From NCBI RefSeq assembly GCF_000428945.1, contig NZ_AUAX01000021.1, positions 1 to 64,000 on the forward strand: DNA of 64,000 nt, given 5' to 3'. The notes under the pieces were generated by a model. The model ran no database searches, was not told where the DNA came from, and was given only the letters and a program-made list of their open reading frames with translations. Source of the stretch: Hamadaea tsunoensis DSM 44101. GTDB lineage: Bacteria; Actinomycetota; Actinomycetes; Mycobacteriales; Micromonosporaceae. Positions within the stretch are counted from its first letter, which is position 1, and each line of letters starts with the position of its first letter. This document shows, in pieces, positions 8,311 through 27,215 of the stretch. Both the position numbers and the translations under genes were made by a program.

Positions 8311-8796
8311 ATGAAGCGCGTGCCACCACCTGACTGCCCGCCCGAGCTGCCGATCAGCGCGCTGATCCCGATGGCTCTGCCGCGCCCGCGACCCGAACCG
8401 GCTCCGGTCGGCGACCTGCCGCCGGTGACTGTCGATGGAGCGGATGTGGCGGTACTCGTGATCGCGCGTCTCAACCCGTCCGGCCAGATCAGCGTTCGGA
8501 CCCTGCTGCCGGCCCTTGGCTGGACACCCGGTGAGCGCATCGCCTTCACCGTCGAGCGCCGCTGCATCGTGGTAGCTGCGACCGACCACCGCGGCCGAGC
8601 ACTGGGTACCGGCGGGCTGCTGGTGCTACCGGTCGCTGCCCGGCGAATGTGCGCGTTCCCTTCCGGTTCGCAGGTGCTGGTGGCCGCCCTTCCCGACGCC
8701 GGTGTTCTTGTGGTCCATTCGATCGGGGTGATCGCCCGGCAGTTGGCGCGCCGCCATGGTCAGATCGTGAGGAGCCGTGATGGCCACCCGACCTGA
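8311..8796 (+). CDS. AbrB/SpoVT-like DNA-binding protein next to recombinase (161 aa)
   Basis: After a Pro-rich N-terminus, residues about 50-130 carry two weak AbrB-like swapped-hairpin units: ARLNPSGQISVRTLLPALGW followed by GERIAFTVERRCIVV, then GGLLVLPVAARRMCAF followed by SQVLVAALPDAGVLVVHS. This resembles the AbrB-domain proteins often encoded just upstream of actinobacterial tyrosine recombinases. The ATG at 8311 is the first reasonable start. The gene overlaps the integrase gene by 17 bases, so they are translationally coupled. Its likely role is regulation of, or assistance to, recombination, as an Xis/RDF-like partner. That role is inferred from context. Confidence 0.6.
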   Translation: MKRVPPPDCPPELPISALIPMALPRPRPEPAPVGDLPPVTVDGADVAVLVIARLNPSGQISVRTLLPALGWTPGERIAFTVERRCIVVAATDHRGRALGTGGLLVLPVAARRMCAFPSGSQVLVAALPDAGVLVVHSIGVIARQLARRHGQIVRSRDGHPT

Positions 8797-9805
8797 CCGC
8801 GTCGAGGCCGCGTGGCGCATGCTCGCAGGCCTCGGCGTGACCATCACCGACCTGCGAGACGACCTGCGTGCCCGCAACCCGATGCCCACCGTTGGCGAGT
8901 ACCTGCCGCAGGTCGCTGCGGCCGCCGGCCCCGCCGCGCGGCGTACGTATGGCAGCTACTGGGCACGAATGAGCGTGGTGTGGGCGGACCGGCGGTTGGA
9001 TGAGGTCACCGCAACCGACATTGAAGGGCTGAAGCACGAGGCGGCGGGTTCGGTGCGGTTCCGAAGCAACAGCCGTAGTGGCCGGCACGCCGGTGAGCAC
9101 GTGATCGCCGCCGCCCGCGCCTTCTACAACAGGGCGATCGCCGACGGGCTTATCGAAGTCGGCGCCAGCCCCGCACATCAGGTGGCCAAGCCGCGTCGGC
9201 TGCCCAACACTCGCCGGGCGCTGACCGCCGATGAACTCGTGCAGGTTAACGAGGTTGTCCGCGGCGGGGGCAACGACGTCGTCCTGGACGCGCTGATCCT
9301 GCGTCTGCACACCGAGACCGCGTGCCGCCGCGGTGGCGCCCTCGGGCTCCGCCTGGCCGACCTCGATGTCCACTACGGGCAGGTGCGTCTGACGGAGAAG
9401 GGCGGTACGCAGCGCTGGCAGCCGGTTACCGTCGACCTCGCCGGGCGGCTGGCCGAACATGCCCGCGCCCGCGGCGCCATCCTGCCCGCCGACACGCTGC
9501 TTCGCTACCGCGACGGACGCGCGTTGACCAGCCGCCGCTACGACCACCTGTGGAAACGCATCGGCGACCAGTTGCCGTGGGTGGCAATGCTTGGAGTGTC
9601 CACTCACTGGCTGCGGCACACCACTTTGACGTGGGTCGAACGCCACTTCGGATACGGCATCGCCCGCGCGTACGCCGGCCACACCGATTCCACCGGACCT
9701 GCCACCACCACCTACATCAAGGGCCAGCTAGCCGAGGTCGCCGCCGCGCTATCGGCGATGACCGGACAACCTCACCCACTCGCCCGGTCCGAGATTCGCC
9801 CATGA
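8780..9805 (+). CDS. Tyrosine-type site-specific recombinase (341 aa)
   Basis: An N-terminal SAM-like core-binding region (residues about 20-110, including TYGSYWARMSVVWADRRLDEV) precedes a catalytic domain. The catalytic domain has the Arg box TETACRRGGALGLRLADLD, Lys in LTEKGGTQRWQPV, THWLRHTTLTWVER (His-x-x-Arg) and the tyrosine in ATTTYIKGQLAEV. All active-site elements of a phage-type integrase are visible. The ATG at 8780 has GGAG five bases upstream; a GTG three bases earlier also fits. It overlaps the AbrB-like gene. Just downstream lie an IS5 fragment and a 34-bp sequence found again at 63652-63685, so an attachment site could be nearby. The element it mobilises is not defined. Confidence 0.85.
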   Translation: MATRPDRVEAAWRMLAGLGVTITDLRDDLRARNPMPTVGEYLPQVAAAAGPAARRTYGSYWARMSVVWADRRLDEVTATDIEGLKHEAAGSVRFRSNSRSGRHAGEHVIAAARAFYNRAIADGLIEVGASPAHQVAKPRRLPNTRRALTADELVQVNEVVRGGGNDVVLDALILRLHTETACRRGGALGLRLADLDVHYGQVRLTEKGGTQRWQPVTVDLAGRLAEHARARGAILPADTLLRYRDGRALTSRRYDHLWKRIGDQLPWVAMLGVSTHWLRHTTLTWVERHFGYGIARAYAGHTDSTGPATTTYIKGQLAEVAAALSAMTGQPHPLARSEIRP

Positions 9806-10340: not shown

Positions 10341-13300
10341 ATGCACCGACAGGAGGATCTAGCCCGGCTACCCGTGGACCATGGAAATCCGGCACCGCAG
10401 GTTCGCGCCAACTTTCAATATCAGGACGACTGCGCAGCGCTGGTCCTCCTCGGCCACCTAGGCGCAGACGACCTTGATGGCGTGATCGTCGAGCGGGCCA
10501 CTGATCTGATCTTGGTGAGGTTGGACGGTGGCTTGGAGCTTGTGTCAATCAAGCACCGTGAGGCGAACCGCAGCGGCGCCGCGGCATGGTCGTGGTCGGC
10601 CCTCGCCAAAGATCGGGTGCTAATGGACTTGCACTCCAAATGGCTGATGTACGACAAGCAGGCGACTGTGGCGTTCTGGTCCAGCGCGGGCTTCGCCGAC
10701 CACACTTACGCCTTGTGGCGAACGTGCGCGAAGGGCGAGAAGCCGTCCCCCGACCTGGTCCGTCAGCTCGCGCGGCACCTAAAGATCTCCGAAACCGATG
10801 CTCGCGAGTTTCTCGACGTGCTCCACCTCCCAGAGGAGCCGCTGCCCCGCCGCAAAGAGATCGGAGATGTTGCGGTCCGGCGCACCGCAGATCTCCTGCG
10901 ACCAATGCGAACCCATCCCGACCGTACGGCGCAGGAATGCTTCGACGAGCTACGAGCCCGACTGCGTGACGCAGCGACCGACACCGCGGCTCGCACCACG
11001 GAACGGGCAGCACACACCGCAACCCTCGCGCAGGCCGCCTCGATACGCGACGAGCTCCGTATCCGGCACGAGTACGTAAGCCGAGCAGATATCGTTGATC
11101 TTCTCCTACGCGTCCACGACCGACTTTCAACGCAGCACACAGAGGTTCTCGATGAAGCAGGATGGCAGTCTGATCCCCACTTTGTTGGGCGCAACGCCGA
11201 GCTGCGGACGCTCGCGGAACTCCTCAAACCGGGTGACCCGCACGAGGTCCCGCCTGTAGTCGTCCATGGCATGCCCGGTGCCGGCAAAACAAGCCTGGCT
11301 ACCCAGTTCGCTGCGCTAAATGCTGGCAAGCTGCAGGCGGTGTTCATCAGCGGCACCTCCCGAGTCGCCTTGCAGCGTGCCCTCGCCAAGCTGCAGCCGC
11401 GTAACGCTGTATCCGTGGCTCAGACCGACCTCCAAGACCTAGGGGCGCCGGTCACAGTCCGCCTGCCACAAAACTCGGCGACGCTACTGGTCATTGACGG
11501 CGTCACCGACCCTGGCGCGCTAGCCGGGCTGATTCCTCGCCACGGGCTGTGTCGGGTGGTGATCACCAGCACCGTACGGCATCTCGATCAAGGCTTTGCA
11601 TCGATCGAACTGCCAGTATGGACTACGACTGAGTCATCCACGTTCATCCAAGCAGCACTCCCAGAGTCGTCCGACGACGACCGCCGGTCGTTGGGCACCG
11701 CACTCGGACACCATCCGTTGGCGGTGACGCAAGCCGTCAACTACTGCCTCGCGTCGAACCGCTCGATCTCGGACTTCCTGACCCGTCTTGCTGCGCAACC
11801 GGCAGTAGCCCTACAGCGCGGAATCGCCGCTGGGCACTCAAAGGGCCTGGTAGCGACCATCGACCTGAATGTGCGGCTACTACGAGAGCAGCATCCAACT
11901 GCCTGCGACCTACTCATCCTGCTAGCCCATGTGAGTGCCGAGCCGTTTGATGTGGAGCACTTCGGTCGTCTCCACGGATACCTCTATGTAAAGACTCCCT
12001 ACGTCTGGCGGCCCACGATCTCCCGATGGGCCCGTCTGAAGGCCGCCGTAACTCGACAACCGCTACCGGACGCACATATCGTGATCCCTCAGTCCGCTCG
12101 CGCCCCGGCCATCGCTGCCGCGCTGTCTGACGATGCCACTCGTGAGGATGCCGTAGACACGCTCGTCCGACAGTCGTTGGTGCAGCGTCGCAGCCACGGG
12201 CTGCTGCTGCACCCACTGATCGCAACGGTGATTCGCCAGCACGAGCCCGATCCCGTCCCGTGGATCGAGATTGGACTCGGTCTTTATGCCGAGTCGCTGG
12301 GGCTGGCAGACCAAGACGACGTCACGGTAGCCGTCGACCCTGACATCGACCACATCGCTGCCCTCACACTTCTCGCGCTGGACCACGGCCATTCCGGATA
12401 CGGCGTGATAGGTGCTTCGATCGTGGTGTGCCAATATCTCTACTCCCGCGGCAGCATCCCTGCACTTGACACTGCCGACCGCGCGGCCGAGTTTGCGCTG
12501 CGCACACTGGCCCTCACGGAGCATCTCAACACTCAGCGCTTGATTCCTATAATCGCCCCTATTCGGCACCATCGCGTAGCAGCCGCGGTACTGCTACGGG
12601 CTGGCCGAATCAACGAAGCGATCGAACTTCTCCAAACGCTTTTCCGGCTCGCGGAACAGCTCCCCCAGACACGCGACGAAGCCGGCGAAGTCATTCTCAT
12701 GGCTCTGCTGGACCTCGGAGCGATAGCCGCACACGCCACTCGTCGGGATCTCGCCCTGGAGATACTTGAGGGGCTGACACCATACCTCGTCGATCTCGCC
12801 GAAGAGCCACCGGACGTCCAAGCGTCAATCGGGCACATCCGTGCCTCGTTGCTCCGCTTGCTTGGACGTACCGAGGAAGCCGCCGAAGTCAACGCGGCCG
12901 CCTTGCAAGCGGCATCGACCACCACCGCCTCGCCTCGGCTGCTCGCCGACCTGCACACGAGGGCGTCAGTTCTCGCCCGGGACCGAGGTGACAGCCTCAC
13001 CTCGCTTCGCCACGACCTTGCCGTGCTTGACATTCGACGGGCCGTGCCAAGCAAACGCATCGGCTGGCAGACGGTTACCGCGTTGATCGACAGTGCCGAC
13101 GGCGCCATCGGCGCCCTCGATTTCGAGCTCGCGGTCCGTCTGCTCACCGAGGCTGAGGAACTTGCCCGATCAACCTTTGGTGTTGACAGCCTCGAGTATG
13201 CCAAGTACCTGGCTGTTCGCGGCCGGCTCAACGTTGGGCGTCATCACTGGCAGGACGCCGAGATTGACCTGGCGGCAGCGGCCTCGGTGGTTCGCCAAGC

Positions 13301-14192
13301 TGGAGAGGCTGAGCAGGCGGGACTCGCCGTCATCTTGGTACACCTCGGCCAGGCCGCCATGTTCCTGGGCGACGCCGACGCGGCCTACGCAGCCTTCGAC
13401 GAGGCCATCCAGATCGATACGGCCCTTTTCGGACCTGAGCATCCGGAGACGCTCACAGACATCACGATCCGCAACACCACGTCGGACGCTGTTGCACGGC
13501 AGCGCCAGCTTTACGCTCCACCCCGCAGGACGCGTCATGCCAACCATACTTCTGTCGAACCGTCCACCAGCGGCACCGCGAGCCCCAGCGGAAAGCCCTG
13601 GCCCGACATAGCAGACTTTCCGGGTCCTCGCTACGAACCCATGAGTGGGCGGATCCAGATCGGTGTAGGCCCCTACGGATCGGCGAGCACCTGGCGCCTG
13701 CACGAACCCGGCGTTGGCGTCCGGCACGGCGTAATTACCGGCCCGCCCGGAAGCGGCCGGACCAACGCACTCAACCGCATCCTGATCAACGCGATGCACT
13801 CCCAGCGGTTCCTCATAAGCCCCATGGCTCCCACCTGGTCCGACACCGATCGTGACACCTGGAAGGTGGCTTCGTTCCAGGCCGAAGGACCTGACGCGGT
13901 CCGGCGCCTACTGCAGACGTTGAATCAACGCCTCACCGAAAATCTGAGCCATGGCAAACAGACCGATCCCACTTCAACAAACAAGGCTATTCTGATCACC
14001 ATTGACGACGCCGATCAACTCTTTCGAACCGCGCCGGACATCGTTCCGATTGTCGAACGGATCACGCATCATGGCTCGACGGCCGGATTCGGGTTGATCG
14101 TCGTATCCACCGACACCACACCGGACAGCTTTGGCGGCAGCTCCCTACTTCGCGAAACACTCCTAGCGGGAAATCACATGAGCTGCGTGTGA
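10341..14192 (+). CDS. Nuclease-STAND NTPase-TPR protein with C-terminal FtsK-like ATPase (1283 aa)
   Basis: Likely a cytosolic sensor/effector of phage or plasmid invasion. Residues 1-210 look like a DUF4297/Cap4-type PD-(D/E)xK nuclease: FQYQDDCAALVLL, then E51/D55 and the SIKHRE lysine at 71. An NB-ARC/STAND NTPase follows, with Walker A GMPGAGKTS near residue 310 and a hydrophobic strand TLLVIDG. Residues about 700-1040 are TPR-like helical repeats. Unusually, a second P-loop ATPase sits at the C-terminus: Walker A GPPGSGRTNAL near 1133 and Walker B ILITIDDADQLF near 1217, resembling FtsK/EccC domains. It ends soon after IVVSTDTTPDS, shorter than a full FtsK fold. STAND proteins with nuclease heads act as Avs-type defence receptors; that this one does so is inference. 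Confidence 0.75.
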   Translation: MHRQEDLARLPVDHGNPAPQVRANFQYQDDCAALVLLGHLGADDLDGVIVERATDLILVRLDGGLELVSIKHREANRSGAAAWSWSALAKDRVLMDLHSKWLMYDKQATVAFWSSAGFADHTYALWRTCAKGEKPSPDLVRQLARHLKISETDAREFLDVLHLPEEPLPRRKEIGDVAVRRTADLLRPMRTHPDRTAQECFDELRARLRDAATDTAARTTERAAHTATLAQAASIRDELRIRHEYVSRADIVDLLLRVHDRLSTQHTEVLDEAGWQSDPHFVGRNAELRTLAELLKPGDPHEVPPVVVHGMPGAGKTSLATQFAALNAGKLQAVFISGTSRVALQRALAKLQPRNAVSVAQTDLQDLGAPVTVRLPQNSATLLVIDGVTDPGALAGLIPRHGLCRVVITSTVRHLDQGFASIELPVWTTTESSTFIQAALPESSDDDRRSLGTALGHHPLAVTQAVNYCLASNRSISDFLTRLAAQPAVALQRGIAAGHSKGLVATIDLNVRLLREQHPTACDLLILLAHVSAEPFDVEHFGRLHGYLYVKTPYVWRPTISRWARLKAAVTRQPLPDAHIVIPQSARAPAIAAALSDDATREDAVDTLVRQSLVQRRSHGLLLHPLIATVIRQHEPDPVPWIEIGLGLYAESLGLADQDDVTVAVDPDIDHIAALTLLALDHGHSGYGVIGASIVVCQYLYSRGSIPALDTADRAAEFALRTLALTEHLNTQRLIPIIAPIRHHRVAAAVLLRAGRINEAIELLQTLFRLAEQLPQTRDEAGEVILMALLDLGAIAAHATRRDLALEILEGLTPYLVDLAEEPPDVQASIGHIRASLLRLLGRTEEAAEVNAAALQAASTTTASPRLLADLHTRASVLARDRGDSLTSLRHDLAVLDIRRAVPSKRIGWQTVTALIDSADGAIGALDFELAVRLLTEAEELARSTFGVDSLEYAKYLAVRGRLNVGRHHWQDAEIDLAAAASVVRQAGEAEQAGLAVILVHLGQAAMFLGDADAAYAAFDEAIQIDTALFGPEHPETLTDITIRNTTSDAVARQRQLYAPPRRTRHANHTSVEPSTSGTASPSGKPWPDIADFPGPRYEPMSGRIQIGVGPYGSASTWRLHEPGVGVRHGVITGPPGSGRTNALNRILINAMHSQRFLISPMAPTWSDTDRDTWKVASFQAEGPDAVRRLLQTLNQRLTENLSHGKQTDPTSTNKAILITIDDADQLFRTAPDIVPIVERITHHGSTAGFGLIVVSTDTTPDSFGGSSLLRETLLAGNHMSCV

Positions 14193-14403: not shown

Positions 14404-14747
14404 CGCCGCCGCGCCGCCCACGCCGCGGTCGCCTACCTCGAATCGACCGGAGTACTCGCGCGCATGATCGCGATCAGCGGCCGATCCGAATTCGACCGAC
14501 ACATCGCGTCGGGCTGGGCTGGCACGGCTGGGGCTTCCATCTACCTTGGTCGCTTTCGGATCCCGCACCTTAGCTATGGCTGGAGGTCGTGCACCACACC
14601 CTCGCCGGCACACTCAACGCCCTGCTCATCACGCCCACCGACCACGAGTAACTGCGCAACCTCACCCTGGGGCGTGACAATGCGCAGCGATTGACGCCAG
14701 CCCAGCTGGCAATGCAGTTCCCTGTGCGAACCAGGGGCCGCAGTTAG
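14404..14747 (+). pseudogene. Decayed small gene with frameshift and internal stop
   Basis: One frame reads RRAAHAAVAYLESTGVLAR and continues to about 14580. A second frame then reads EVVHHTLAGTLNALLITPTD up to a TAA at 14649-14651 and goes on in frame as LRNLTLGRDNAQRLTPAQLA to TAG 14745-14747. Both parts have genuine protein-like composition, so this looks like a short gene broken by one frameshift and one nonsense codon. The family is unknown. Its end abuts the stop of the convergent nuclease gene. Confidence 0.45.
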
Positions 14748-15856
14748 CGGTCGAAGATCCTGACCGTGACAGCTAGCCCTTCAGTCGTGGAGCTGCGGGT
14801 GAGGTCCGCCTCGATCCCTCGGGGCCCCTGAAGCCGGCCGTCGTAGTCGAAGACGAGGCAGACAAGGTGCTTCGCCCGATTCTCTGCTTTGTAGCGATCG
14901 CGGTCGACGATGAGTTCGTCGCCGAGGTCCCTGGCCGTCATGCTGGCTCGGCTGCGTTTGATCTCGATTGCCAGTTCGAGCGCGGGGATGAGGAAGTCAA
15001 TTCGCGCCGCACCGCCGGCATAAGGCGGCGTCCAAGCTTCGTCGCGCACGTCGTCGAAGAAGAGCGCGAAGACCGTCCGCAGGAGGTCTTGGTAGTCGTA
15101 TTCGTCGCTGATCGTCAACGTCGGACGGCCGCCATGGCGTCTACTAAGTTCACGTTCGACGTACCGCAGGCGCTCGCCTACCGTGAGCAAGACCTTCACG
15201 GCGTCGATCTTCTCCCCAGCGAAGTCAGTCGTTCCAGCGCTGCGTTGCGTCCGCAAGGTGCCAGCCACCAGGGCGTTGAGGATGTCGAGGATCGCCCTTG
15301 CCTTCGTGGAAACTGACGATGCGATCGCGCCGAAGTCCCCGGCCTTGTACTTGGCTGCTTCATCCTTGCCCGAGAGGTATGAGAACAGACCAAGCTCGTT
15401 GAGAGTTGCGAGGTTGTAGAACTTTGGATGGATGACGTAGTTCTCGCCGTAGGCTTCCCCGACGATGTCGTCAAGGTCATACAGCAGGTGCTCTGCGGGA
15501 GTGTGCTTTGGTTCTTTCGCCGTGATGTATCGGTAACGGTTGGCTAGCGCGGAGAATCCGTAGGTCGAGCTGTTCATGTTCCAGTGTACGATCAATGAGT
15601 CGCGATGTTCGACCAGGTGCTCGTAGAACCGTTCGAACAGGGCTTCCTCGCGCTCCTGTATGGCGGTGTCCGCTGGAAGGTCAGCGAGCGAGAACGCCTG
15701 CCGCGTGCCGTTCTTGAGATTGGCGACGGCAATGCAGGCAATGGCTGGTGGATGGTCTTGTGCGTCCGCAAGACTTTCGCATGCGTAGTGCACGGAGATG
15801 ATCTCCCTGCCCTCTCTATGTGCCTTGCGAAGTTCGCGTAGCTTGGAGGACTCCAC
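14744..15856 (-). CDS. DpnII/MboI-like PD-(D/E)xK nuclease, third gene of the trio (370 aa)
   Basis: The C-terminal ~130 residues carry DYQDLLRTVFALFFDDVRDE, then WTPPYAGGAARIDFLIP and LAIEIKRSR, ending in YKAENRAKHLVCLVFDYDG. Asp in RIDFL with E-x-K in EIKR is the PD-(D/E)xK active site, and the layout matches the REase_DpnII-MboI family (PF18742-like). The N-terminal ~240 residues are a separate domain (SVHYACESL; SLIVHWNMNSSTYGFSALAN) that may have an RNase H/DEDD-like fold; this is a tentative reading. The start codon overlaps the last base of the phosphatase gene, so the nuclease is translationally coupled to it. There is no methyltransferase nearby, so it is not a normal restriction system. 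It is probably the effector of the trio. Confidence 0.7.
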   Translation of the reverse strand: MESSKLRELRKAHREGREIISVHYACESLADAQDHPPAIACIAVANLKNGTRQAFSLADLPADTAIQEREEALFERFYEHLVEHRDSLIVHWNMNSSTYGFSALANRYRYITAKEPKHTPAEHLLYDLDDIVGEAYGENYVIHPKFYNLATLNELGLFSYLSGKDEAAKYKAGDFGAIASSVSTKARAILDILNALVAGTLRTQRSAGTTDFAGEKIDAVKVLLTVGERLRYVERELSRRHGGRPTLTISDEYDYQDLLRTVFALFFDDVRDEAWTPPYAGGAARIDFLIPALELAIEIKRSRASMTARDLGDELIVDRDRYKAENRAKHLVCLVFDYDGRLQGPRGIEADLTRSSTTEGLAVTVRIFDR

Positions 15857-16533
15857 TACTCACCGCCTTGGGCCGGAATGGTCACGAATTTTCGCTCTGG
15901 AATCAGGTATGCCGACAACGGCCCACCAGGATACGTCCCGCATCCAGTGTCGACGCAAACCAGCAGACCATCTTCAAACGGACGACGAGAACGCTGCGCA
16001 TAATGCCCACAGACCGTCAGCTTCCGCGCGACTGTTGGATCGTCGAAGAGTTCAGGGTGTGGACGCAGAACCATGGTCTCAAGGTCCCTCGCGGTCGGTC
16101 GACGCGGGTCGAAGCCCATATGGCTGATCAGCAACTCGCTGGTCTCGAAGTACAGCTCGCTGCGCACCAGCAGCTCGCGGTGATTCTCAGGGAACCTACT
16201 GCGAAAATCCTTCAAAACGTGCGCTGGCACGGATCGGTAGTAGCTGGCGACCGTCGCGAGTCCACCGTTCTTCAGAAAAGTGCTCGGATTTCCGGTGTCA
16301 AGGAAGTCCAGCAACGCCTGCTCGTGGTTGCCGCGGACGATCGTCGCGCCGTCCGGCCAGCTCTCGATGAGCTGGCAGGCAAGATCGAGCACATGTGCGC
16401 TTTGCGACCCGCGATCGATGAGGTCGCCGACGAAGTAAAGGTGGCGCCCCTGCGACTCGGGCGAGTCCAGGAGCTGCGCCGCCTGATCGTACTGGCCATG
16501 GATATCGCCAACGATCATGATCGGTTGGGTCAT
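15856..16533 (-). CDS. Calcineurin-like (PPP-type) metallophosphatase, second gene of the trio (225 aa)
   Basis: All metallophosphatase motifs are present: GDIHGQYDQ (residues 9-17), GDLIDRGSQS (36-45), RGNHEQALL (67-75), a later His in LISHMGF and a C-terminal VCVDTGCG. Spacing and length (225 aa) match small bacterial PPP/PrpE/ApaH-like serine/threonine or dinucleoside-polyphosphate phosphatases. It overlaps the nucleotidyltransferase start by four bases (ATGA), and its stop overlaps the nuclease start. In this setting it may reverse a modification made by the transferase, or hydrolyse a nucleotide signal. The substrate cannot be told from sequence. Confidence 0.85.
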   Translation of the reverse strand: MTQPIMIVGDIHGQYDQAAQLLDSPESQGRHLYFVGDLIDRGSQSAHVLDLACQLIESWPDGATIVRGNHEQALLDFLDTGNPSTFLKNGGLATVASYYRSVPAHVLKDFRSRFPENHRELLVRSELYFETSELLISHMGFDPRRPTARDLETMVLRPHPELFDDPTVARKLTVCGHYAQRSRRPFEDGLLVCVDTGCGTYPGGPLSAYLIPERKFVTIPAQGGE

Positions 16534-17321
16534 ATCGGAGGCGTCGCCAACGCCGTGTACTCGAACCCCTCGACGGGTCCGATCAATGCCTGGACCATCA
16601 GCGTGGCCGCGTACGGCGAGCTGCTCAGCAGCGATACCGCCAGAGAGTCCAGTGTGGTCTCCGCGCGGGGAATGTCACCGACGACGTCGCGAACCGCATT
16701 GAATAGAACTTCCAGGTCGTCGGCCTGCGGAGGCGCAAGTCGCATCCGCAGCGCACGCGTTACAGACGACACCCCGAGACGCTCGGCAACTAGGTCGGGA
16801 TCGAACTCGGGTTCGCCGTCATTGGCAACGACCGCATAGCAGGCGGTACGAGCAACATAGATTCCGAGCTTTCGAAGGGCGTCCCAGTGCTCAGCGGCGT
16901 CGTCGACAGTCAGCGCTCGAGCAGCCGCAGCCAGTTCCGAGATGGCCGCATCGAACGTCGCGGGCCGGCGATACTCAGAAAGGATTTGTGTCAGCACGCC
17001 CTCCGGGTCGGCGATCATGTACCCGTCGGTCTGCAAATGCAGCATGAACAGACTGCCTTGCGAGGCCATCTCACGCAGAGTCTCGACGCTATAGGCAGTC
17101 ACGTTGACGTCGCCGACCGAGTATTTACCTGGGACTGCTGTAACGACCTGGAGTACATCGATGTCGCTGTCTTCTCGTTCCGATCGACGCGCTTGACTTC
17201 CATACAGCAGGATCGCCACATACGGACCACGAACAGCGTCCAGCGCACGGGCAACCACCTCCGGCTGCGGCATGCGCTGGGCGTGGCTCCCCTGAGCACT
17301 GGGAGTTTCTTTGGCCTGCAC
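16530..17321 (-). CDS. Nucleotidyltransferase (MNT-like), first gene of the trio (263 aa)
   Basis: Residues 34-57 carry the polymerase-beta-type signature ILLYGSQARRSEREDSDIDV: Gly-Ser, then the Asp-x-Asp metal pair. A helical C-terminal region of ~150 residues follows, as in kanamycin-nucleotidyltransferase-like and MNT proteins. The annotated GTG at 17321 lacks a clear ribosome-binding site; ATG 17273 (MPQPEVVARAL) is a credible alternative. It likely transfers AMP or another nucleotide to a protein, RNA or small molecule. Its stop overlaps the phosphatase start. Transferase, phosphatase and nuclease in that order on one transcript suggest a signalling or self-protection circuit. Confidence 0.8.
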   Translation of the reverse strand: MQAKETPSAQGSHAQRMPQPEVVARALDAVRGPYVAILLYGSQARRSEREDSDIDVLQVVTAVPGKYSVGDVNVTAYSVETLREMASQGSLFMLHLQTDGYMIADPEGVLTQILSEYRRPATFDAAISELAAAARALTVDDAAEHWDALRKLGIYVARTACYAVVANDGEPEFDPDLVAERLGVSSVTRALRMRLAPPQADDLEVLFNAVRDVVGDIPRAETTLDSLAVSLLSSSPYAATLMVQALIGPVEGFEYTALATPPI

Positions 17322-17480: not shown

Positions 17481-17813
17481 TCAGCTGGCTATGGACGACG
17501 GTGGCCGGCGGGCGAACGGTGCCCGAGTAGGTCGCGGAGGCAAAACGTCAACCACAAGCTCCCCATCGACCTCAAGCCACCGCGTGCGCCGATCGCAGAT
17601 GATCTCCAAGTCGTGGTGGCGTTCGAACCGAGCCAGCGCGACCGCGGCATCGTGGTCGTCGCCGCGAAGCTGCATCACGGTCTTGATCGCGTCGATGATC
17701 GCCAGTCCTTCGGATCGCAGGTAGCCGAGGATCTGTTCGACGTCGGCCTGCGGGCCGAACTGGTTGCGAGCCGCGTCGACCACGTGGTCGAGCCGACCGC
17801 GACTTGCCGTCAT
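17481..17813 (-). CDS. Hypothetical barstar-linked protein (110 aa)
   Basis: A small protein with helices (GRLDHVVDAARNQFGPQADV; GLAIIDAIKTVMQLRGDDHD) and a strand-rich end (RWLEVDGELVVDVLPP). Its ATG (17813) overlaps the barstar stop in an ATGA. I prefer this over the longer frame starting at 17915. No family was recognised. Pairing with barstar on one transcript suggests that it works with, or regulates, the inhibitor, but no RNase motif is visible. Confidence 0.6.
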   Translation of the reverse strand: MTASRGRLDHVVDAARNQFGPQADVEQILGYLRSEGLAIIDAIKTVMQLRGDDHDAAVALARFERHHDLEIICDRRTRWLEVDGELVVDVLPPRPTRAPFARRPPSSIAS

Positions 17814-18292
17814 GGCTGCCGCCTTGCGTCGAGCCATTCGGCGTCGTTCCACATCACCGGCGTAGCGCCGACGGGCTCGAATCGAATCTGCGGGTCGTCG
17901 GACTGCAACAGGCACATCACGCGCCGGCCGAACAGCAGTGCACTTCTGGCCTGGTCGGCCATGATGTCGAGCACGATCTGCGCCGCGCGCGGGCAGTGGC
18001 GGGTGAACTGGTCGTAGCCGGTGAAGACGAGAACCAGGCCGGCGGTCTCGGCGGCAGCCCAGCCGTATTGGCCGTCGACGACGTCGCGCATACAGTCGTT
18101 GAGCGCGTCGAGGTTACATCTGTAATAGTCCGGAAAGTCGAGCGCCTGGGCGATCTCGCGGTGCAGGTCGCCCTCAGTTGCCCAGCCGGAGGCGTCCAGG
18201 CGAGTGACCTGGTAGCCGGCTTCAGCCAACTGGGCGGTGGTCTGGTCAAGGAGATGGGAGCGCCAGAACAGCGTCACGAAGGTATTGATCAT
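17810..18292 (-). CDS. Barstar-family RNase inhibitor (160 aa)
   Basis: The protein contains the barstar fold order: a strand and helix (YQVTRLDASGWATEGDLHRE), then the conserved ALDFPDYYRCNLDALNDCM (the FP.YYGxNxDAL signature) and a hydrophobic strand AGLVLVFTGYDQF. It is a PF01337-like inhibitor. I chose ATG 18292 because sequence upstream is shadow-like and a divergent plus-strand gene begins at 18452. No barnase-type ribonuclease lies next to it, so it may be an orphan immunity protein acquired with the island. Confidence 0.75.
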   Translation of the reverse strand: MINTFVTLFWRSHLLDQTTAQLAEAGYQVTRLDASGWATEGDLHREIAQALDFPDYYRCNLDALNDCMRDVVDGQYGWAAAETAGLVLVFTGYDQFTRHCPRAAQIVLDIMADQARSALLFGRRVMCLLQSDDPQIRFEPVGATPVMWNDAEWLDARRQP

Positions 18293-18451
18293 CAGCAGAA
18301 GCGCCAGATCGTGTCCGTGGTCCTTCTGGGGTCGAACGCTGCCATAACCGCCGAGGTTAACGGGCATGCGCGGGGCTGCCCAGCACATAAGGCGCCGGGC
18401 GACCTGGTTCGACGGCTCCGTGGCAGGGGCGAGTTCTGGCAGGATGACGCC

Positions 18452-18826
18452 GTGACTGATCATCAGCGGGATGGGCTCGCGCTGCTGGTAGGACTCGAGG
18501 TCAGTGCCGTCTGTTTTGTCCGGGACTATGTCGAATTGCACTTCGACGGGCCGGTCCTGCGTGCGTTGAGCGCTCCCTTCGGACTGTATGGGTGCCGCGG
18601 TTGGCGGTTCCCCGACGGAGACTCGCCCACAGTCATGCGCTACTACATCGGCAAGACGGTCGACGGGTTCGAGCTGTCCCCGGATCGGCTGCTCGCCCTC
18701 GACTTCGGCGAGCATCGTTTCGCGATTCCGCTGGACGACAACGCACGCGTTGGCCCGGAGGCCGCCCACCTGCACGTACCCGACCCTGCGACCGAGATGC
18801 CGGTCCGCCGAATGTGGATCTGGTGA
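18452..18826 (+). CDS. Hypothetical protein (124 aa), divergent to barstar
   Basis: A GTG start at 18452 with AGGA seven bases upstream. The protein runs LALLVGLEVSAVCFVRDYVE, then LHFDGPVLRALSAPFGLYGC and ends AHLHVPDPATEMPVRRMWIW. The alternating strand-like pattern and the ELHFDGPVLRAL motif resemble a small conserved hypothetical family in actinomycetes. The function is unknown. Its TGA overlaps the GTG of the frameshifted gene that follows, so the two likely formed an operon divergent from the barstar pair. Confidence 0.6.
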   Translation: MTDHQRDGLALLVGLEVSAVCFVRDYVELHFDGPVLRALSAPFGLYGCRGWRFPDGDSPTVMRYYIGKTVDGFELSPDRLLALDFGEHRFAIPLDDNARVGPEAAHLHVPDPATEMPVRRMWIW

Positions 18827-19040: not shown

Positions 19041-19337
19041 CTGTTCCGTCCCGGGAGGTTGGGTACACGGCTTGCGAGTGGTAGGCCCGCGAGGGCGGGT
19101 CTGCTGCACTGAACCGCAGCTTGTGGCAAGAGTCAACTACGACGAATCCAAGCAACCCGGAGCACATCATCAGCTTCCCGCACGATCTTTCACCACGAGT
19201 TGGACATCGCTAGCGTTCGTTCAGCTGTTTCCCGTGGGATGGACAACTGTCTACGGTGAGGTTGGTCCGGGCCGCCTGAAGGCTGGACGCTGCGCGGCTC
19301 CACTGTGGGGCGTGGCGATGCGCCGTTGGAGAACGAG

Positions 19338-22300
19338 ATGGGAACGATCGTGTCAGGCTTCGCGGAGCAGGTCCTTCGGCCAACACGTGACGTGATCGGT
19401 GCTCACCTCCAGGTGCGTGATCGGTGGAATGCGGCCGAGGAACTGGCGAGCATGACGCGACACGCTGTACACGACTACGGCGGCCGGTTTCTCCTTGAGC
19501 TGATTCAGAACGGATACGACGCGCATCCTGACGACGCTGTAGACGGTCAGATGTCTATTGTGCTCGACGATGGTGAAGGTGAGTTCGGCACGCTGTATGT
19601 AGCGAACGCTGGGGCGCCGTTCGTCTCGAGCAACTATCTGGCGATCCGGCGCTTGGGTATGAGTGACAAGGCGCCAGGGGAGTCGATCGGGCACAAGGGC
19701 GTCGGTTTCAAAAGCGTGCTGCAGGTTTCGGAACGGCCTGAGGTGTACAGTGCCGACCCCTCCCGGCCGTTCGGCGGGCGGCTGGATGGCTTCTGCTTCG
19801 GCCCGGCGGAGCCCTCTGACCTGGAGACGCTGCTTGGTCTTGACGCTGACGTGGCGAAACTGGTGTGGACGGAGCTGCCGCGGTTTGCTTTGACGGTTCC
19901 GCGTGTCCACGTGCCGCCGACCGCCGCCGAGCTTGCTGCGGACGGCCATGTGACTGTAGTCAGGCTGGCGTTGCGAAGCGCGACGGCCCGTAGTCAGGCC
20001 TGGCAGGCTCTCACCGAACTGCGAGATAGTGATGTGCCTGTCTTGTTGTTCCTGCCTCAGCTGCGCCGGCTGGTTTTCGAGCATCGTGATCGTGACGGTG
20101 AGACCGTCCGCCGTGAACTGACTCGGCTGGCGACTCCCGTCACGGCAGCCTCCGACCAAACCATCTCCACCGAAATCATTGATCTAGGGGATCGTGGCCG
20201 GTTCCTTGTGGCGAACCGGACTGTTCCGGTTGAGCGTCTCGCAGCAGCGATCGAGGCTGGCGTCGGGGATGAAGAACTTGAACCGACCTGGCGGGAGTGG
20301 AGCAAGCCTGCGGTGGTCTCGGTTGCCGTGCCGTTGGAACACGAGGCGACCGACTTCCGGACATACGCGTTCTTGCCACTGGGCAGGAGGGCCAGGTCAC
20401 CGTTCGCCGGCCACATGAACGCACCGTTCCGCACGTTCCTCAATCGAACGGACTTATCGGAGGACGAACACCTCAACCGACTGTTCATCGACGTGGCCGC
20501 CGAGACCTGTCTTCTGACCATCGACGCGCTCACCCATTGTGACCTGCCCGGCGCGCGAGCTGCCGCCGTCGACCTCGCGTGCTGGTCGACCGACCATCTG
20601 CAGGCTCTTGAGGACGCATGCCAGCGGCTGTTCTCGCAGCCTCTCGCGACGCGCCTGAAGCTGCCCGTCCAGACGGCGTCCGGGGCGGCGTGGGCGAGCC
20701 CTGTGCAAGCACGACGATGGCCTGCGGGCACGTGGCAGGTGCTCAGCCGCAGCGCCGCGCTGCCGCTGATCGGTGTACCGCTGCTCGACGACGACCTGCA
20801 AGACCGGCGGGTCAAGCGCCTGGACAAACTCGTCGCAGCGCTCAACTTGTCGCTTGCGCCGAAGGCCGACCAGCTGGCGGTGTGGGTGGAGCAAATGCTG
20901 CGGGTGATGCCCGTCGGCGACGACCTGTCCGGCTGGGACCTGGCCTACGACGAACTGGCCACGATGTTCGATCGTGATCCAGACGCGCTGCAGGGAAGAC
21001 GTGTCCTCCTCGACGAGTCCAACCGGCTTCGCCGGTGCAACGTTGCGCCCGATTCGAGCCGCCGCCGGCCCCGTGTCTCCAGCGCGTTCTTTCCCGCCGT
21101 GCGCGGTCGGGTCGAGGGCGAGGACGACATCGCAGCCGACGCCGATCTGCGTATTCCGGCAGAGCTCGTCGACCGCATGTTCTACCTGCATCCCGGGCTG
21201 CGGTGGACCACAAACTCGCGGCCCGCCCAGCAGACACGCGCACGGCGATGGCTAGAACGCCATCGGCTGGTGCGCCGCTTTGACGCACGCAGTCTGCTTG
21301 ATCACGTCCGCGACGCCCTGCGCCGTGACACGGATGATGAGCTGGCCCTGGCCGCACTTGGCTTCGCTTTCCGGGTGCACCTCGCCCGGCCCGGCAGCCA
21401 GTTGTCGTTGGAGGAAGTCGGGCTGAAGGTGCCGATTCTCGGCGGTGGCTGGCTACCTGCCGGACAGGCGTTGTTCTCCAGCGCGTGGCCGCGGACCGCC
21501 GGAGGCCAGATCGAGACGCTTATCCGCGAAGCGACCGGTGTCAGCGATGATCTGACGCGGATGCAGGCACGGCTGCTCGCCCGTCCGGCCGACGTCACCT
21601 CGGCCGACGACGACATAAGCGATTGGGTGGCGTTCCTGCGTCGCGCGGGTGTGCGGGACTGGCTCGATCCCGTGGCGATGCCGTCTACGGGCAAAAGTCT
21701 GTACGGCGCGGAATTGACCCACCGCCCCTTGGCCGCGTTCATGGGATTGACCGAGGAAGCACAGCAGCTGTGGCGAGCTCACTTCGATCGGCTGGAGCGG
21801 CCGGCAAGGTACCCGCAGACACCGTATGTCGCGGCGACGCCGGGCTACGGGCTGCCGGGCCAGGACGACCATGAACACTTGTCGAGCAAGGCGAAAAGCG
21901 CCTACGCCGAACTGTTAGTTCTCGGTCTGGACAAGTGGTCCGATGAGTGCCTTCGGACCTCGTTCCACCGTGACCGGTCCGGTGATCCGGATGTCAAGAC
22001 GGTCCCGACGCTGGCGGCGGCCTTCCTGGTGCGCGCGGCATGGCTGGAAACGCGCGCACCCGGGCACTCCGGCGGCCAGTTCGTCCAGCCGGCCGACGCG
22101 TGGATGACCAATGACGAGGACGACGACAACGCACGCCGGTTCGCTCCCTTGGTCTCCATGCCGCTGCGGCGTCTGATCTTCGGTTCGAAGCAGACGCTGC
22201 AACGGCTGAGGCACGCCGGAATCGGCGTATGGTCCGATCCGGATCATGCTGGCCGCCTGATCTGGCATCACGGGCAGCTGCTCGCCGACACGCTCGTGCC

Positions 22301-24683
22301 CGACCTGGAATCCGGGACGTTCCGCCGCAGCTATCAGGCGGCCTGGGCACGTCTGACGGGCTCCAGCAATGCGGGTCTACCTGCCGCTCCCACACCGCGG
22401 TATCTGGTGGTCGAACAACGTGAGCGGCTCACCGTCGTGCCCGTCGACGAACCTGGATCGGTCTACGTGACCGACAACGCCGCAGCGTCGAGTTACCGCA
22501 TCGCCCGCGAGCTAGGGCTCAGCCTGCTGCCGCTTCGCGAACACTCCGACACCGCCGCGCGCCTGCTTGCCGAAGACACGGCGCTTGAGGTCCGCGCTGT
22601 CGCCGCCGCGGCCGCCAGCGTCATTCTGGACGGCCACACATATACCCCGGCATCGGCAAGCCCTGCGCTGGTCGACGACCTGTTGCCCTGGCTGCCCACC
22701 CTGATCGGCCTGGCGATCGAATACCGCACAACATTTCTGCGCCTGGCCGAAACAGGTTTCCGGGGAACCATTGATCGGCTCCGGCGCCTCCGTGTCGTGA
22801 ACGCAACCGAGATCACCGTTACCGTCGACCGGAACGAGTTCACGATCCCCGACCGCATGCATGACGCATTCGCAATTCCTGACCCTACGTGGCCGACCTT
22901 GGTGCTGCGCCAGCAAACAACAAACCTCGATGCAGCTGAGCTGAGAAGAGCCGCCGGTGCGATCTGCGAGCTCATCGGGCGGCCACAACTCGTCGAAGCG
23001 CTACGCCTATCGATCATGGAGCTCGACGAACTCGGCGCCGACTTCGCAGACGGCCCCGACAACGACGAACTAGCGACGGTCTTCGGCATCACGGCCGAGC
23101 AGGTCGGCGACACCCGCCGCCGAGTCAACCGCCAGATAACGACCATTCTTCATCGTCTATACCCGATCGTCGTGCACCTGTGCGGACCTGACGCAGCCGC
23201 CGGTCTGGATCCGGGCAACTCAATGATCTCCGACGAACACATGCTCGCCACCGCGCTCCGCAGGCTGCCCCTGGGCGACGGGCTCACGGCCGACACACTG
23301 CTACGCGAAGCAATCGACGCTCAAACCGTCTACAGCTTGCGCGACCGGCTAGGAATCGACTTCGCCCAGTTCAACCACGTGCTGCATGCGCTCTCACCGG
23401 CATACGCACCCGACCTGCCCCGCGAGCAGCACGGCGACGCCTTCAAGTACTTCGTGGCCCAACAACGCCGCGAGATCATCGACCGGCTGCGGACCGCCCG
23501 CCTCGCGGACTTCGACGAAGGTCGACCGCAATCAGACTGGCGCGAACTACGTGCCCTCGCGGGCCTCGAGTCTGACGAAGCCTGGCTCATGCTTTACCGG
23601 CTGCCGTCGGAAGAACTCATGCGTACGCAGGTCGAGACGTGGCTCGCCCGTCACGGCACCAGCGATCATGCTGATGCGCACCTACCTGCCCTGGAATCCG
23701 TACAGCAAGCCAACCGCACCTTCATCGTCGCTCGGCTGCCCGTCGCGACCGCAACCGTCCGGGCTTGGGCACAGACCTACGATCGAGCAGTACCGACTTG
23801 GTGGGTCCACCGCGACCAACCCGAGACGACCGCTGCGGCCGTCGACGAACTCGACCGCGCCGCCGCGCTGGACTTCCGCTGCCTCGACGATTCCCTGCTG
23901 ATCAACTGGCTCACGGTTCTGGGCCACTGGCCAGCCGACATGCCGCCCAGCCTGGACACAGACGCCCTAGGAGTCCGGCCCGAAGACGTCAACGCCGCAG
24001 CGGCAGGCCAAGCCCGACTCGAGCGCGCCAGACAACGCCGAGTCATCCAACTCGACGATCAGGACATCGACGTCGGCGGAAACGACTTCGAATATCTATG
24101 TGAAGCCCTACGCGCCAAGGTCGGCGATCAAGATCCCTTCCCCGGCAGAAGTACTCGGTTCGCAACCCCGACGCTCCCAGCACGCAACCCCCGATCGTCA
24201 ACCTCAGGTGCTGGATACACCGGCGGTGGGCGGACGCCGTCGGCGAACGCGATGTCCGACGATCAGCGGCAGGCGGTCGGATTCATCGGCGAGTGGCTCG
24301 CATACCAATGGTTGCAGCATCGCTACCCGACAGCCTCCCCCGAATGCTGGGTCTCCACCTACCGGCGCCACGTCTTTCCTGGCGTGCCAGGCGACGACGG
24401 GCTCGGCTTCGACTTCCGCATCCCAGCGGCTAAAGATCTGTACTTCGAAGTGAAGACAACCCAAGGCGAACTCGGAGAATTCGAACTAGGCGAGAGCCAA
24501 GTGCGAGAGGCGCAACGCCACACACACGAAGACCGGTGGCGACTCATCGTCATCAGCAACGCCCTGGACACCAGCCTGCGACGCCTAGAAGTCCTGCCCA
24601 ACCCCTTCAGCCGGCGTGGTCAGCAAAGATTCCAACTCGTGGGCCGAGGACTGCGCTTCCGATACGCCTTGCCCAACGTCTGA
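19338..24683 (+). CDS. Hsp90/sacsin-like ATPase with C-terminal NOV_C (DUF3883) nuclease domain (1781 aa)
   Basis: A very large protein. A Bergerat (GHKL) ATPase lies at residues 48-125: ELIQNGYDA supplies the catalytic Glu and Asn, LYVANAGAPF follows, then IGHKGVGFKSVL is the glycine-rich lid. This is the sacsin/NO VEIN type of Hsp90-like domain. The middle (~1400 aa) is helical and unassigned. The last ~140 residues form a NOV_C/DUF3883 domain with a PD-(D/E)xK core: FIGEWLAYQWLQ, then Asp in GLGFDFRIP and the E-x-K of YFEVKTT. The ATG at 19338 was chosen over the earlier in-frame start because the family motif begins soon after. Plant NO VEIN has the same ends. A defence role is inferred from the nuclease domain and the island. 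Confidence 0.8.
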   Translation: MGTIVSGFAEQVLRPTRDVIGAHLQVRDRWNAAEELASMTRHAVHDYGGRFLLELIQNGYDAHPDDAVDGQMSIVLDDGEGEFGTLYVANAGAPFVSSNYLAIRRLGMSDKAPGESIGHKGVGFKSVLQVSERPEVYSADPSRPFGGRLDGFCFGPAEPSDLETLLGLDADVAKLVWTELPRFALTVPRVHVPPTAAELAADGHVTVVRLALRSATARSQAWQALTELRDSDVPVLLFLPQLRRLVFEHRDRDGETVRRELTRLATPVTAASDQTISTEIIDLGDRGRFLVANRTVPVERLAAAIEAGVGDEELEPTWREWSKPAVVSVAVPLEHEATDFRTYAFLPLGRRARSPFAGHMNAPFRTFLNRTDLSEDEHLNRLFIDVAAETCLLTIDALTHCDLPGARAAAVDLACWSTDHLQALEDACQRLFSQPLATRLKLPVQTASGAAWASPVQARRWPAGTWQVLSRSAALPLIGVPLLDDDLQDRRVKRLDKLVAALNLSLAPKADQLAVWVEQMLRVMPVGDDLSGWDLAYDELATMFDRDPDALQGRRVLLDESNRLRRCNVAPDSSRRRPRVSSAFFPAVRGRVEGEDDIAADADLRIPAELVDRMFYLHPGLRWTTNSRPAQQTRARRWLERHRLVRRFDARSLLDHVRDALRRDTDDELALAALGFAFRVHLARPGSQLSLEEVGLKVPILGGGWLPAGQALFSSAWPRTAGGQIETLIREATGVSDDLTRMQARLLARPADVTSADDDISDWVAFLRRAGVRDWLDPVAMPSTGKSLYGAELTHRPLAAFMGLTEEAQQLWRAHFDRLERPARYPQTPYVAATPGYGLPGQDDHEHLSSKAKSAYAELLVLGLDKWSDECLRTSFHRDRSGDPDVKTVPTLAAAFLVRAAWLETRAPGHSGGQFVQPADAWMTNDEDDDNARRFAPLVSMPLRRLIFGSKQTLQRLRHAGIGVWSDPDHAGRLIWHHGQLLADTLVPDLESGTFRRSYQAAWARLTGSSNAGLPAAPTPRYLVVEQRERLTVVPVDEPGSVYVTDNAAASSYRIARELGLSLLPLREHSDTAARLLAEDTALEVRAVAAAAASVILDGHTYTPASASPALVDDLLPWLPTLIGLAIEYRTTFLRLAETGFRGTIDRLRRLRVVNATEITVTVDRNEFTIPDRMHDAFAIPDPTWPTLVLRQQTTNLDAAELRRAAGAICELIGRPQLVEALRLSIMELDELGADFADGPDNDELATVFGITAEQVGDTRRRVNRQITTILHRLYPIVVHLCGPDAAAGLDPGNSMISDEHMLATALRRLPLGDGLTADTLLREAIDAQTVYSLRDRLGIDFAQFNHVLHALSPAYAPDLPREQHGDAFKYFVAQQRREIIDRLRTARLADFDEGRPQSDWRELRALAGLESDEAWLMLYRLPSEELMRTQVETWLARHGTSDHADAHLPALESVQQANRTFIVARLPVATATVRAWAQTYDRAVPTWWVHRDQPETTAAAVDELDRAAALDFRCLDDSLLINWLTVLGHWPADMPPSLDTDALGVRPEDVNAAAAGQARLERARQRRVIQLDDQDIDVGGNDFEYLCEALRAKVGDQDPFPGRSTRFATPTLPARNPRSSTSGAGYTGGGRTPSANAMSDDQRQAVGFIGEWLAYQWLQHRYPTASPECWVSTYRRHVFPGVPGDDGLGFDFRIPAAKDLYFEVKTTQGELGEFELGESQVREAQRHTHEDRWRLIVISNALDTSLRRLEVLPNPFSRRGQQRFQLVGRGLRFRYALPNV

Positions 24684-25724: not shown

Positions 25725-27215
25725 TTATTTCCCCACGGCTTCCATCGGCGTCACTCGATCTTCGGGTGACGCCGATTCCGTGGAGCGAGGCGTTCGCTGC
25801 TTCGGGATCGGTGTCATTCGTGGGGGAGTCTGCTGGAACACGGTCTCGCCGTCGATGTCGAGCCGCCACTCCGCATGATCACACCAGATGATCAATCGGT
25901 GGCCCTCTAGAATCGTGGGCAGGTCCGCGATGGTGATGTCGCCACCAGCGAGAAAGAGGATCGCCTGATCCTCCCGGGCGTAGATGTTCTTGGACGGTCG
26001 GCTCCAGCGCAATCGTGAGCTCGTGCGGCCGTGTCGGCACCGGTGCGAAGCCCGGCCGTGACTCCAATGCGGTTCCAACCGTCGGCCGCACGGTTCGCAG
26101 GAGAACAGGCCGGTCATCGTGAACTCGTGGGCGTCATTGTGGGCGGTGCTATGGATGGCCTGCGCTGCGATGAAGTCCGCTTCACTGACCAGCGGCTCGT
26201 GGACGGTGTCCTTGGAGATCGTCCACTCCTGCACCCTGCTCCATCGATACATCTCGGCATGCCCGAGGGCGTCGTCTGCCTGGTCGAGGCTGCCGTGATC
26301 GGTGTGCTGGCGGTTCCACACCTGGCGACCGGTGTAGCGGGGGTTGGCCAGAATCGATGCCACGGTGCGCAACGTCCATCCCTCGCCGCTACGGTGTGGA
26401 TTGCGTTGCGGGTCGTGTGCGGAGGGACAGGCGACGTTCTGCTCGTTGAGGGAGACGGTGATCGCGGCGACACTCCAGCCGGCCAGTCGTTGGGCAAACA
26501 TCCAGGACACCCACCGAGCGGTCTCCGGGTCGGGGCCATAGCGGTGCAGGCGGCGTCCCCACTGGGCGTGGGCCTTGTTCGGATGCGGTCCGGCATCCAC
26601 GATCATGTACCCGTACGGTGGGCGGCCACCGATCATCCGTCCCTGTTCGAGGACCTGGCTTTGCATCGCAGCCTTCACCCGGAACCGGGTTCGCTGCACC
26701 TCGCGTTTGGCGTGCACGCCCAGCAGTTTGAGTAGTGACTGGTGCTCCGGGTTGTGGAGATCGACCGGGCCACCGAGCTCGGGTAGCCACAGCTGCACAT
26801 GGTGGCTTTCAAAGATGGGACCGAGCTGCTCGATTTGGTTACCGCAGAAGGCGCGCTCGAACTCGCCCACGACGACAGCGTCGAACTCCCGATTCGGGTC
26901 GGCCAGCGCGGTGAGGAGTTTCGCGGCTTCCGGTCGGCGAGCCCATCCGCGGCTGCGTGTCACTCCCTGATCGATGTACTCGACCACGATCGTGCCGTGC
27001 CCGGCGATCAAGTCGTCGACCACGAACCGCTGCCACCCGGCAGAGGATTGAAAGTGCTGGAAGCGGTCGGTCGACATCCGGCCGTAGAACGCGAACCTGG
27101 TCGTGGCGATGCCGACACCAACGGGGTGGCGCAGCCGCCAAGCTGTCTTGGGGTCGTCGAGTTGTGCCCAGACCTGGAGCCGATCGGCATGGAGAGGGTC
27201 GTGGGGTGTAGTCAT
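25725..27215 (-). CDS. Serine recombinase (resolvase/invertase type, 496 aa)
   Basis: The N-terminal catalytic domain (residues about 40-190) has FYGRMSTDRFQ with the nucleophilic serine, an Asp/Gln motif in IDQGVTRSRG and the Arg of VVVGEFERAFCG. A recombinase domain follows (GGRPPYGYMIV; GWTLRTVASILANPRYTGRQ), then a zinc ribbon with CEPCGRRLEPHW and CRHGR. Length and domain order fit large serine recombinases, though it is shorter than most phage integrases because the coiled-coil part is reduced. It sits at the edge of the island, with its 3' end touching repeat C. It may have moved the island or be a late arrival. The next 289 bases (27216-27504) hold nothing that I can identify. Confidence 0.9.
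   Translation of the reverse strand: MTTPHDPLHADRLQVWAQLDDPKTAWRLRHPVGVGIATTRFAFYGRMSTDRFQHFQSSAGWQRFVVDDLIAGHGTIVVEYIDQGVTRSRGWARRPEAAKLLTALADPNREFDAVVVGEFERAFCGNQIEQLGPIFESHHVQLWLPELGGPVDLHNPEHQSLLKLLGVHAKREVQRTRFRVKAAMQSQVLEQGRMIGGRPPYGYMIVDAGPHPNKAHAQWGRRLHRYGPDPETARWVSWMFAQRLAGWSVAAITVSLNEQNVACPSAHDPQRNPHRSGEGWTLRTVASILANPRYTGRQVWNRQHTDHGSLDQADDALGHAEMYRWSRVQEWTISKDTVHEPLVSEADFIAAQAIHSTAHNDAHEFTMTGLFSCEPCGRRLEPHWSHGRASHRCRHGRTSSRLRWSRPSKNIYAREDQAILFLAGGDITIADLPTILEGHRLIIWCDHAEWRLDIDGETVFQQTPPRMTPIPKQRTPRSTESASPEDRVTPMEAVGK

Follow-up and report, generated by a model that had tools for sequence, protein, structure and literature searches.

We analysed a 64,000-nucleotide stretch of the 9.48 Mb genome of Hamadaea tsunoensis DSM 44101 (contig NZ_AUAX01000021.1, positions 1 to 64,000; hereafter the window), in which three genes on the minus strand, spanning 14744–17321, form a candidate defence operon. 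The first gene (16530–17321, GTG start, 263 aa in the list of open reading frames) encodes a nucleotidyltransferase (NTase) that resembles HalB of the Hailong system. The second (15856–16533, 225 aa) encodes a PPP-family metallophosphatase with the metal-site motifs and a Metallophos (PF00149) match, and the third (14744–15856, GTG start, 370 aa) a putative effector nuclease with a DpnII-MboI module. All three reading frames lie where the initial annotation had placed them, with tightly joined starts and stops. The NTase and phosphatase genes have an ATGA in common, and the phosphatase stop codon TAG is directly abutted by the GTG of the nuclease gene (TAGTGG).

The NTase and the phosphatase constitute the conserved core of this operon, and the third gene is exchangeable between a nuclease and a DUF4062 NADase. 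Sixteen distinct NTase–phosphatase loci were found through similarity to the NTase, one of them through the nuclease and none through the phosphatase; 7 of 15 pattern matches in one locus search were not confirmed. The phosphatase gene directly follows the NTase gene in all 16, mostly with a 4-base overlap. A chance neighbourhood is rejected on this adjacency, and the rarity of adjacent homologues that would have told against the initial annotation did not materialize. Four loci carry the nuclease: the window, Micromonospora marina of the same family (L009, identical with L019), G802 (L088) and G1129 (L161). The other 12 (L010, L011, L014, L149, L020–L026 and L087) all show, behind the phosphatase and on the opposite strand, a whole or partial match to a DUF4062-TPR protein, and none shows a nuclease match. 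Pfam finds no DUF4062 in the trio or in the scanned neighbouring genes (10341–14192, 17810–18775, 19305–24683 and 25725–27215), and tblastn with two DUF4062 queries gives no match in the window.

Identities to the window NTase, phosphatase and nuclease are 68, 55 and 66% in M. marina (for the nuclease, over its first 265 residues), 38, 39 and 48% in G802, and 38, 41 and 47% in G1129. The full gene order is kept at four loci, one of them with a broken nuclease, and recurs in distant actinomycetes whose three proteins share as little as about 38, 39 and 47% identity with those of the window, which agrees with the conserved synteny anticipated for actinomycetes. NTase and phosphatase trees, which took in three of the four nuclease-type loci, each group these three (support 1.0 and 0.998, respectively), and each also groups L014, L149 and L020 (0.87 and 0.98).

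The spread is thin. Within the order, 6 of the 298 genomes have any NTase match, the own genome and two weak matches counted. Nuclease matches occur in two of 396 genomes of the phylum, namely the own genome and G322 (DpnII module only), in two of 297 genomes of the order of G802 at E 1e-20 (G802 counted), and in one of the four genomes of its family, G802 itself. Left out of the 16 loci are L012 (a HalB-like NTase with a HalA-like partner), L013 (a 34-residue match) and the distant phage protein L008, all three with no phosphatase match; L008 was the single NTase match from scans of viral contigs, the second of which confirmed none. Also left out are 63 of 66 matching genomes, all at 33.8 bits or less, of which G172 (the source of L012) had its neighbours examined.

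The NTase has the signature GSQAR...SDID, and its DxD (D53 and D55; 17157–17165, minus strand) aligns with D21 and D23 of HalB. The DxD is invariant in all 15 aligned relatives and in five aligned HalB relatives. Scores are 20.4 bits against Pfam Polbeta (cut-off 26.9), 21.5 bits against the MntA model NF047752 (cut-off 60) and 117 bits (E 8e-34) against the HalB model NF051895, whose curated cut-off of 190 is not reached. Seven of the 15 other loci were scanned with NF051895 and scored between 79 and 120 bits. A scan of 396 genomes of the phylum with the same model gave matches in 116 genomes, the best other at 34 bits; because 5 of 14 controls also matched, only the 117 bits of the window are used. 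Structural comparison of the predicted model recovers the HalB fold, with three HalB rows. The GS...DxD motif of the initial annotation stands, whereas its MNT-type assignment is rejected, HalB being far closer in both profile scores and structure. An NTase of HalB rather than MNT type is likelier to make DNA than to AMPylate a partner.

HalB reportedly primes synthesis on its own terminal tyrosine. A tyrosine is located exactly eight residues before the end of the NTase in 16 of 16 loci; in the window this candidate priming residue is Y255 (16557–16559, minus strand). The HalB of viral contig L151, which is identical to HalB over the 169 residues compared and sits behind a HalA gene (435 bits to NF051894), ends in ...EESPY, and six plasmid HalB relatives end in tyrosine or in tyrosine plus one residue. 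In the structural comparison, the row 9dbi_C is aligned up to residue 255 of the NTase model versus 226 of HalB, and two other HalB rows stop at 247–248. The match between the Y255 tail and the end of HalB is suggestive only.

The phosphatase matches PF00149 with 56.2 bits and contains GDIHG, GDLIDRG, GNHE and two histidines, bearing out the calcineurin-like enzyme with all metal motifs that had been described. All 15 aligned phosphatases have the corresponding motifs, GD(I/V)HG, GDxx(D/N)(R/K)G and G(N/H)H(D/E) with two histidines; the second aspartate of GDxxDRG is asparagine in 13 of them and is kept as aspartate in the window and M. marina. Among NCBIfam models the phosphatase comes nearest to Pnkp, ApaH and PrpE, with scores far below each cut-off. 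For bacterial Pnkp (TIGR04075), the 54 bits (cut-off 750) cover the phosphatase part only. A 14-row phosphatase profile finds as its best PDB match 4j6o (Metallophosphoesterase), which covers nearly the whole domain and which we take to be the Pnkp phosphatase domain; most of the best 60 of 106 PDB rows cover only the first half.

The third protein is composed of two parts. Its C-terminal module (residues 227–365, RIDF...EIK; 14762–15178, minus strand) matches PF18742 with 131.7 bits, in agreement with the proposed DpnII/MboI-type PD-(D/E)xK nuclease. The module resembles the Argonaute-associated nuclease EcbAgaN (23wq, E 1.5e-5), and the protein scores 77 bits against the PADLOC model Aga_Helical-REase; the G1129 nuclease has no PDB match at E 1. 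As the initial annotation had claimed, the nuclease stands without a methyltransferase among the Pfam matches of the scanned neighbours, and a type II restriction-modification system is rejected on that ground.

Structure prediction, which had been proposed for the N-terminal part, yields over residues 15–200 (15257–15814, minus strand) a degenerate fold like the exonuclease domain of family B DNA polymerases, which seems to lack the catalytic residues. The domain keeps the WN of the Exo II region, and glycine and lysine apparently replace the catalytic aspartates of Exo II and Exo III, respectively. The predicted fold suggests nucleic-acid sensing. The structural rows cover residues 15–200, and residues 201–370 are placed by Pfam. 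Foldseek gave rmsd values mostly of 9–15 Å because the alignment ran across both domains, and the VIA result was used instead.

The N-terminal domain occurs on its own as well. It was identified in 43 viral contigs, 42 of which gave an open reading frame. In 33 of the 40 frames complete enough for a hydropathy test, several of them identical copies, a 19-residue stretch past residue 200 has a mean hydropathy of at least 1.6; the other seven fall below. Further relatives of 262–289 aa are encoded on plasmids of Cereibacter, Calothrix, Sporosarcina, Agrobacterium and Robbsia and in one streptococcal prophage. These prophage and plasmid proteins of about 265 aa (L095–L136, L016, L017 and L089–L093) consist of the polymerase-exonuclease-like domain and, in most of them, a hydrophobic tail; in the window protein, the nuclease module takes the place of the tail. 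Genes for integrases, recombinases or repressors are close to some members, and we know of no function for the family. In L093 (73–2984), two genes that by eye are TOPRIM/OLD-like and UvrD-like, a candidate Gabija-like pair, precede the sensor-domain protein.

In the 12 sister loci the third gene is of a different kind. A preprint (PMC13174449) reports DUF4062 to be a TIR-like NADase that triggers abortive infection on meeting a phage portal; the words nucleotidyltransferase, phosphatase and phosphoesterase are absent from its main text. A GxEEE stretch is kept in all ten DUF4062 copies read; L021 is without that part and L149 is outside the ten. The nuclease, whose place this NADase gene takes in the sister loci, is best read as the effector, as the initial annotation had it. 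At 4 of the 16 loci the third gene is disrupted, and the NTase and phosphatase frames are open in all. In M. marina the nuclease runs into unrelated sequence past residue 265, close to the end of the contig, the DUF4062 part is missing in L021, about 1.3 kb is inserted near residue 135 in L025, and in a Rhodococcus plasmid (L149, 6345–9989) an annotated IS21-family element splits the DUF4062-TPR gene near residue 153. This imbalance of four to none is suggestive and, the target sizes being similar, not significant; the NTase-led search also favours intact NTases.

The trio is located between a phage-integrase-family gene (8777–9805) and a serine recombinase gene (25725–27215). Convergent to it, 10341–14192 encodes a 1283-aa STAND/NACHT-TPR protein with NACHT/AAA, TPR and a second AAA-like part and a weak N-terminal LmuA match (24.5 bits), which looks like another defence gene. 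A barstar-domain gene (17810–18775, 67 bits) lies upstream on the same strand, and 19305–24683 matches a PADLOC TmtA model over its full length (1750 bits) and includes sacsin-like and NOV_C parts. The setting rich in defence-like genes noted initially is thus present, and it is flanked by two recombinase genes.

With moderate confidence, we read the trio as a three-gene, Hailong-like abortive-infection system. The NTase would act as a polymerase of HalB type, using its own C-terminal tyrosine as primer to synthesize short single-stranded DNA. The toxic effector would be the third protein: its C-terminal PD-(D/E)xK domain would cut DNA, and its N-terminal domain, a disabled proofreading-exonuclease fold, would bind the 3' end of the DNA made by the NTase. 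Such a fold would be expected of a DNA 3'-end reader, and it would be the main new link between the NTase and effector genes. In Hailong, the effector is suppressed by single-stranded DNA, a block that exonuclease activity of the phage relieves (PMC12657230 and PMC12657218), and poly-dA adducts of HalB block the HalA channel (PMC13275509). By analogy, the DNA would most likely hold the nuclease off, and a phage that destroys or strips the DNA would release it. The phosphatase, of a branch acting on nucleotides and polynucleotide ends, may set the amount or form of the DNA by trimming, by end removal or by release from the tyrosine, the least certain step of the scheme.

The likeness to Hailong consists of the HalB-type fold with its DxD, the tyrosine near the C-terminus and a toxic partner (in the window, a candidate toxin) encoded in an overlapping operon. 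The trio differs in having no HalA ion channel, in the phosphatase present at every locus, in an effector predicted to be a soluble nuclease (or an NADase in the sister loci), in the tyrosine placed before the end and in falling short of the HalB family cut-off. Swarozyc, the DUF4062 NADase of the 2026 preprint, resembles the sister loci in the DUF4062 protein with GxEEE; however, it acts as a single portal-sensing protein, whereas all 12 sister loci tie DUF4062-TPR to the NTase–phosphatase pair; in the window, the nuclease stands in its place. AgaN nucleases such as EcbAgaN share the DpnII-like module but not the polymerase-exonuclease-like N-terminal part; no Argonaute match is found in the scanned neighbours, and nothing relevant on AgaN appeared among the literature matches listed. 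In contrast to the 3'-5' exonuclease domain of DNA polymerase B, the N-terminal domain stands without a polymerase.

Two possible Hailong-like arrangements were also observed. L012 (8381–10169), from an actinomycete, has a HalB-like NTase (43 bits, NF051895) next to a pentapeptide-repeat protein that matches HalA weakly (31.9 bits, in the pentapeptide part), a possible Hailong-like pair. On the rhizobial plasmids L153 (1550–3181), L154 (1507–3172), L155 (1547–3181), L156 (1544–3181) and L157 (1550–3181), a HalB relative, in L153 above the HalB cut-off with 221 bits, lies directly behind an annotated WYL-domain gene and not HalA, possibly a further Hailong-like variant.

We consider it unlikely that the trio is a covalent writer/eraser toxin–antitoxin, in which the NTase would put one or a few nucleotides on the nuclease or NADase and neutralize it, as MntA does with HepT, and removal by the phosphatase would arm the toxin. 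The type VII MntA–HepT system likewise pairs an NTase with a candidate toxic partner, but here the NTase is full-length with the helical part of HalB, to which it is closer than to MNT in every comparison made, the partner is of PD-(D/E)xK type, and a phosphatase is added. The Pfam matches to the trio, taken up to E 0.1, include no HEPN family, and covalent modification leaves the invariant C-terminal tyrosine unexplained.

Equally improbable in our judgement is an activating signal: the phage would switch on the NTase, its product would activate the effector and the phosphatase would destroy the product to limit damage, much like a CBASS system that has an off-switch enzyme. In its favour, signal-activated effectors are usually built by fusing a sensor domain to a nuclease, and the best scores of the phosphatase are to enzymes that act on nucleotides and polynucleotide ends.

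A nucleic-acid repair, metabolic or restriction operon without suicide function is very unlikely: the phosphatase does resemble Pnkp, ApaH and PrpE (all below cut-off) and DpnII is a restriction enzyme, but no ligase, kinase or methyltransferase is named among the scanned locus proteins, the spread is thin, the third gene is exchangeable with a DUF4062 gene and broken in 4 of 16 loci, and the surroundings are rich in defence genes and flanked by recombinases.

Several observations weigh against the Hailong-like abortive-infection system. The NTase misses the NF051895 cut-off (117 versus 190 bits), and the true HalB of L151 scores 272 bits. The glutamate of HalB strand 3 is replaced by asparagine, serine or histidine in the 15 aligned NTases, which leaves activity uncertain; serine also stands there in three of the five HalB relatives. 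Y255 lies in a low-confidence block of the model (mean pLDDT 48) and, unlike the HalB tyrosine, is not the last or second last residue. There is no HalA at the locus: the L151 HalA has no tblastn match anywhere in the window at E 1e-3, and in the whole genome the best NF051894 score is 23.8 bits (cut-off 250) on another contig, with 5 of 14 controls matching too. By sequence, the polymerase link of the N-terminal domain is weak: the Pfam match is at E 0.047, hhalign with E. coli Pol II gives E 0.08, a probability of 0.7% and 31 columns (two in a global run), and a PDB profile search with the N-terminal family returned no polymerase but only ribosomal eS1 (E 0.28). None of the 43 viral loci with the lone domain has an NTase match at E 1e-3 in the available flanks; since the domain occurs without the NTase, its ligand need not be the product of this enzyme. 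The DUF4062 proteins are without the polymerase-exonuclease-like domain, and the nuclease-type loci number only four, of which one has a broken nuclease. When HalB relatives are added to the tree, L012, which is HalA-linked, is placed on a long branch next to the NTases of the nuclease type (support 0.90), so the history of partners is not simple.

No paper on an NTase–phosphatase–nuclease or NTase–phosphatase–DUF4062 system was found among the matches listed, in a search with most subscription journals outside it, which is weak evidence of novelty. As a broader and more tentative proposal, one we think possible rather than probable, the Hailong-like reading extends to a modular DNA-guard immunity: a HalB-type polymerase would make protein-primed single-stranded DNA, a dead proofreading domain fused to a DNase would read its 3' end, a PPP phosphatase would edit or release the DNA, possibly from a phosphotyrosyl link, and the same core would be paired with a DNase or an NADase killer. 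If this is true, Hailong-type NTases would not be bound to one membrane channel, and an NTase–phosphatase module would run differing killers, possibly with an eraser enzyme added. It would suggest, in testable form, how a DNA signal could be sensed by a soluble effector, namely through a proofreading domain turned reader. It would also link DUF4062 NADases to nucleotidyltransferase control and tie a mostly membrane-tailed family of prophage proteins to a sensor domain.

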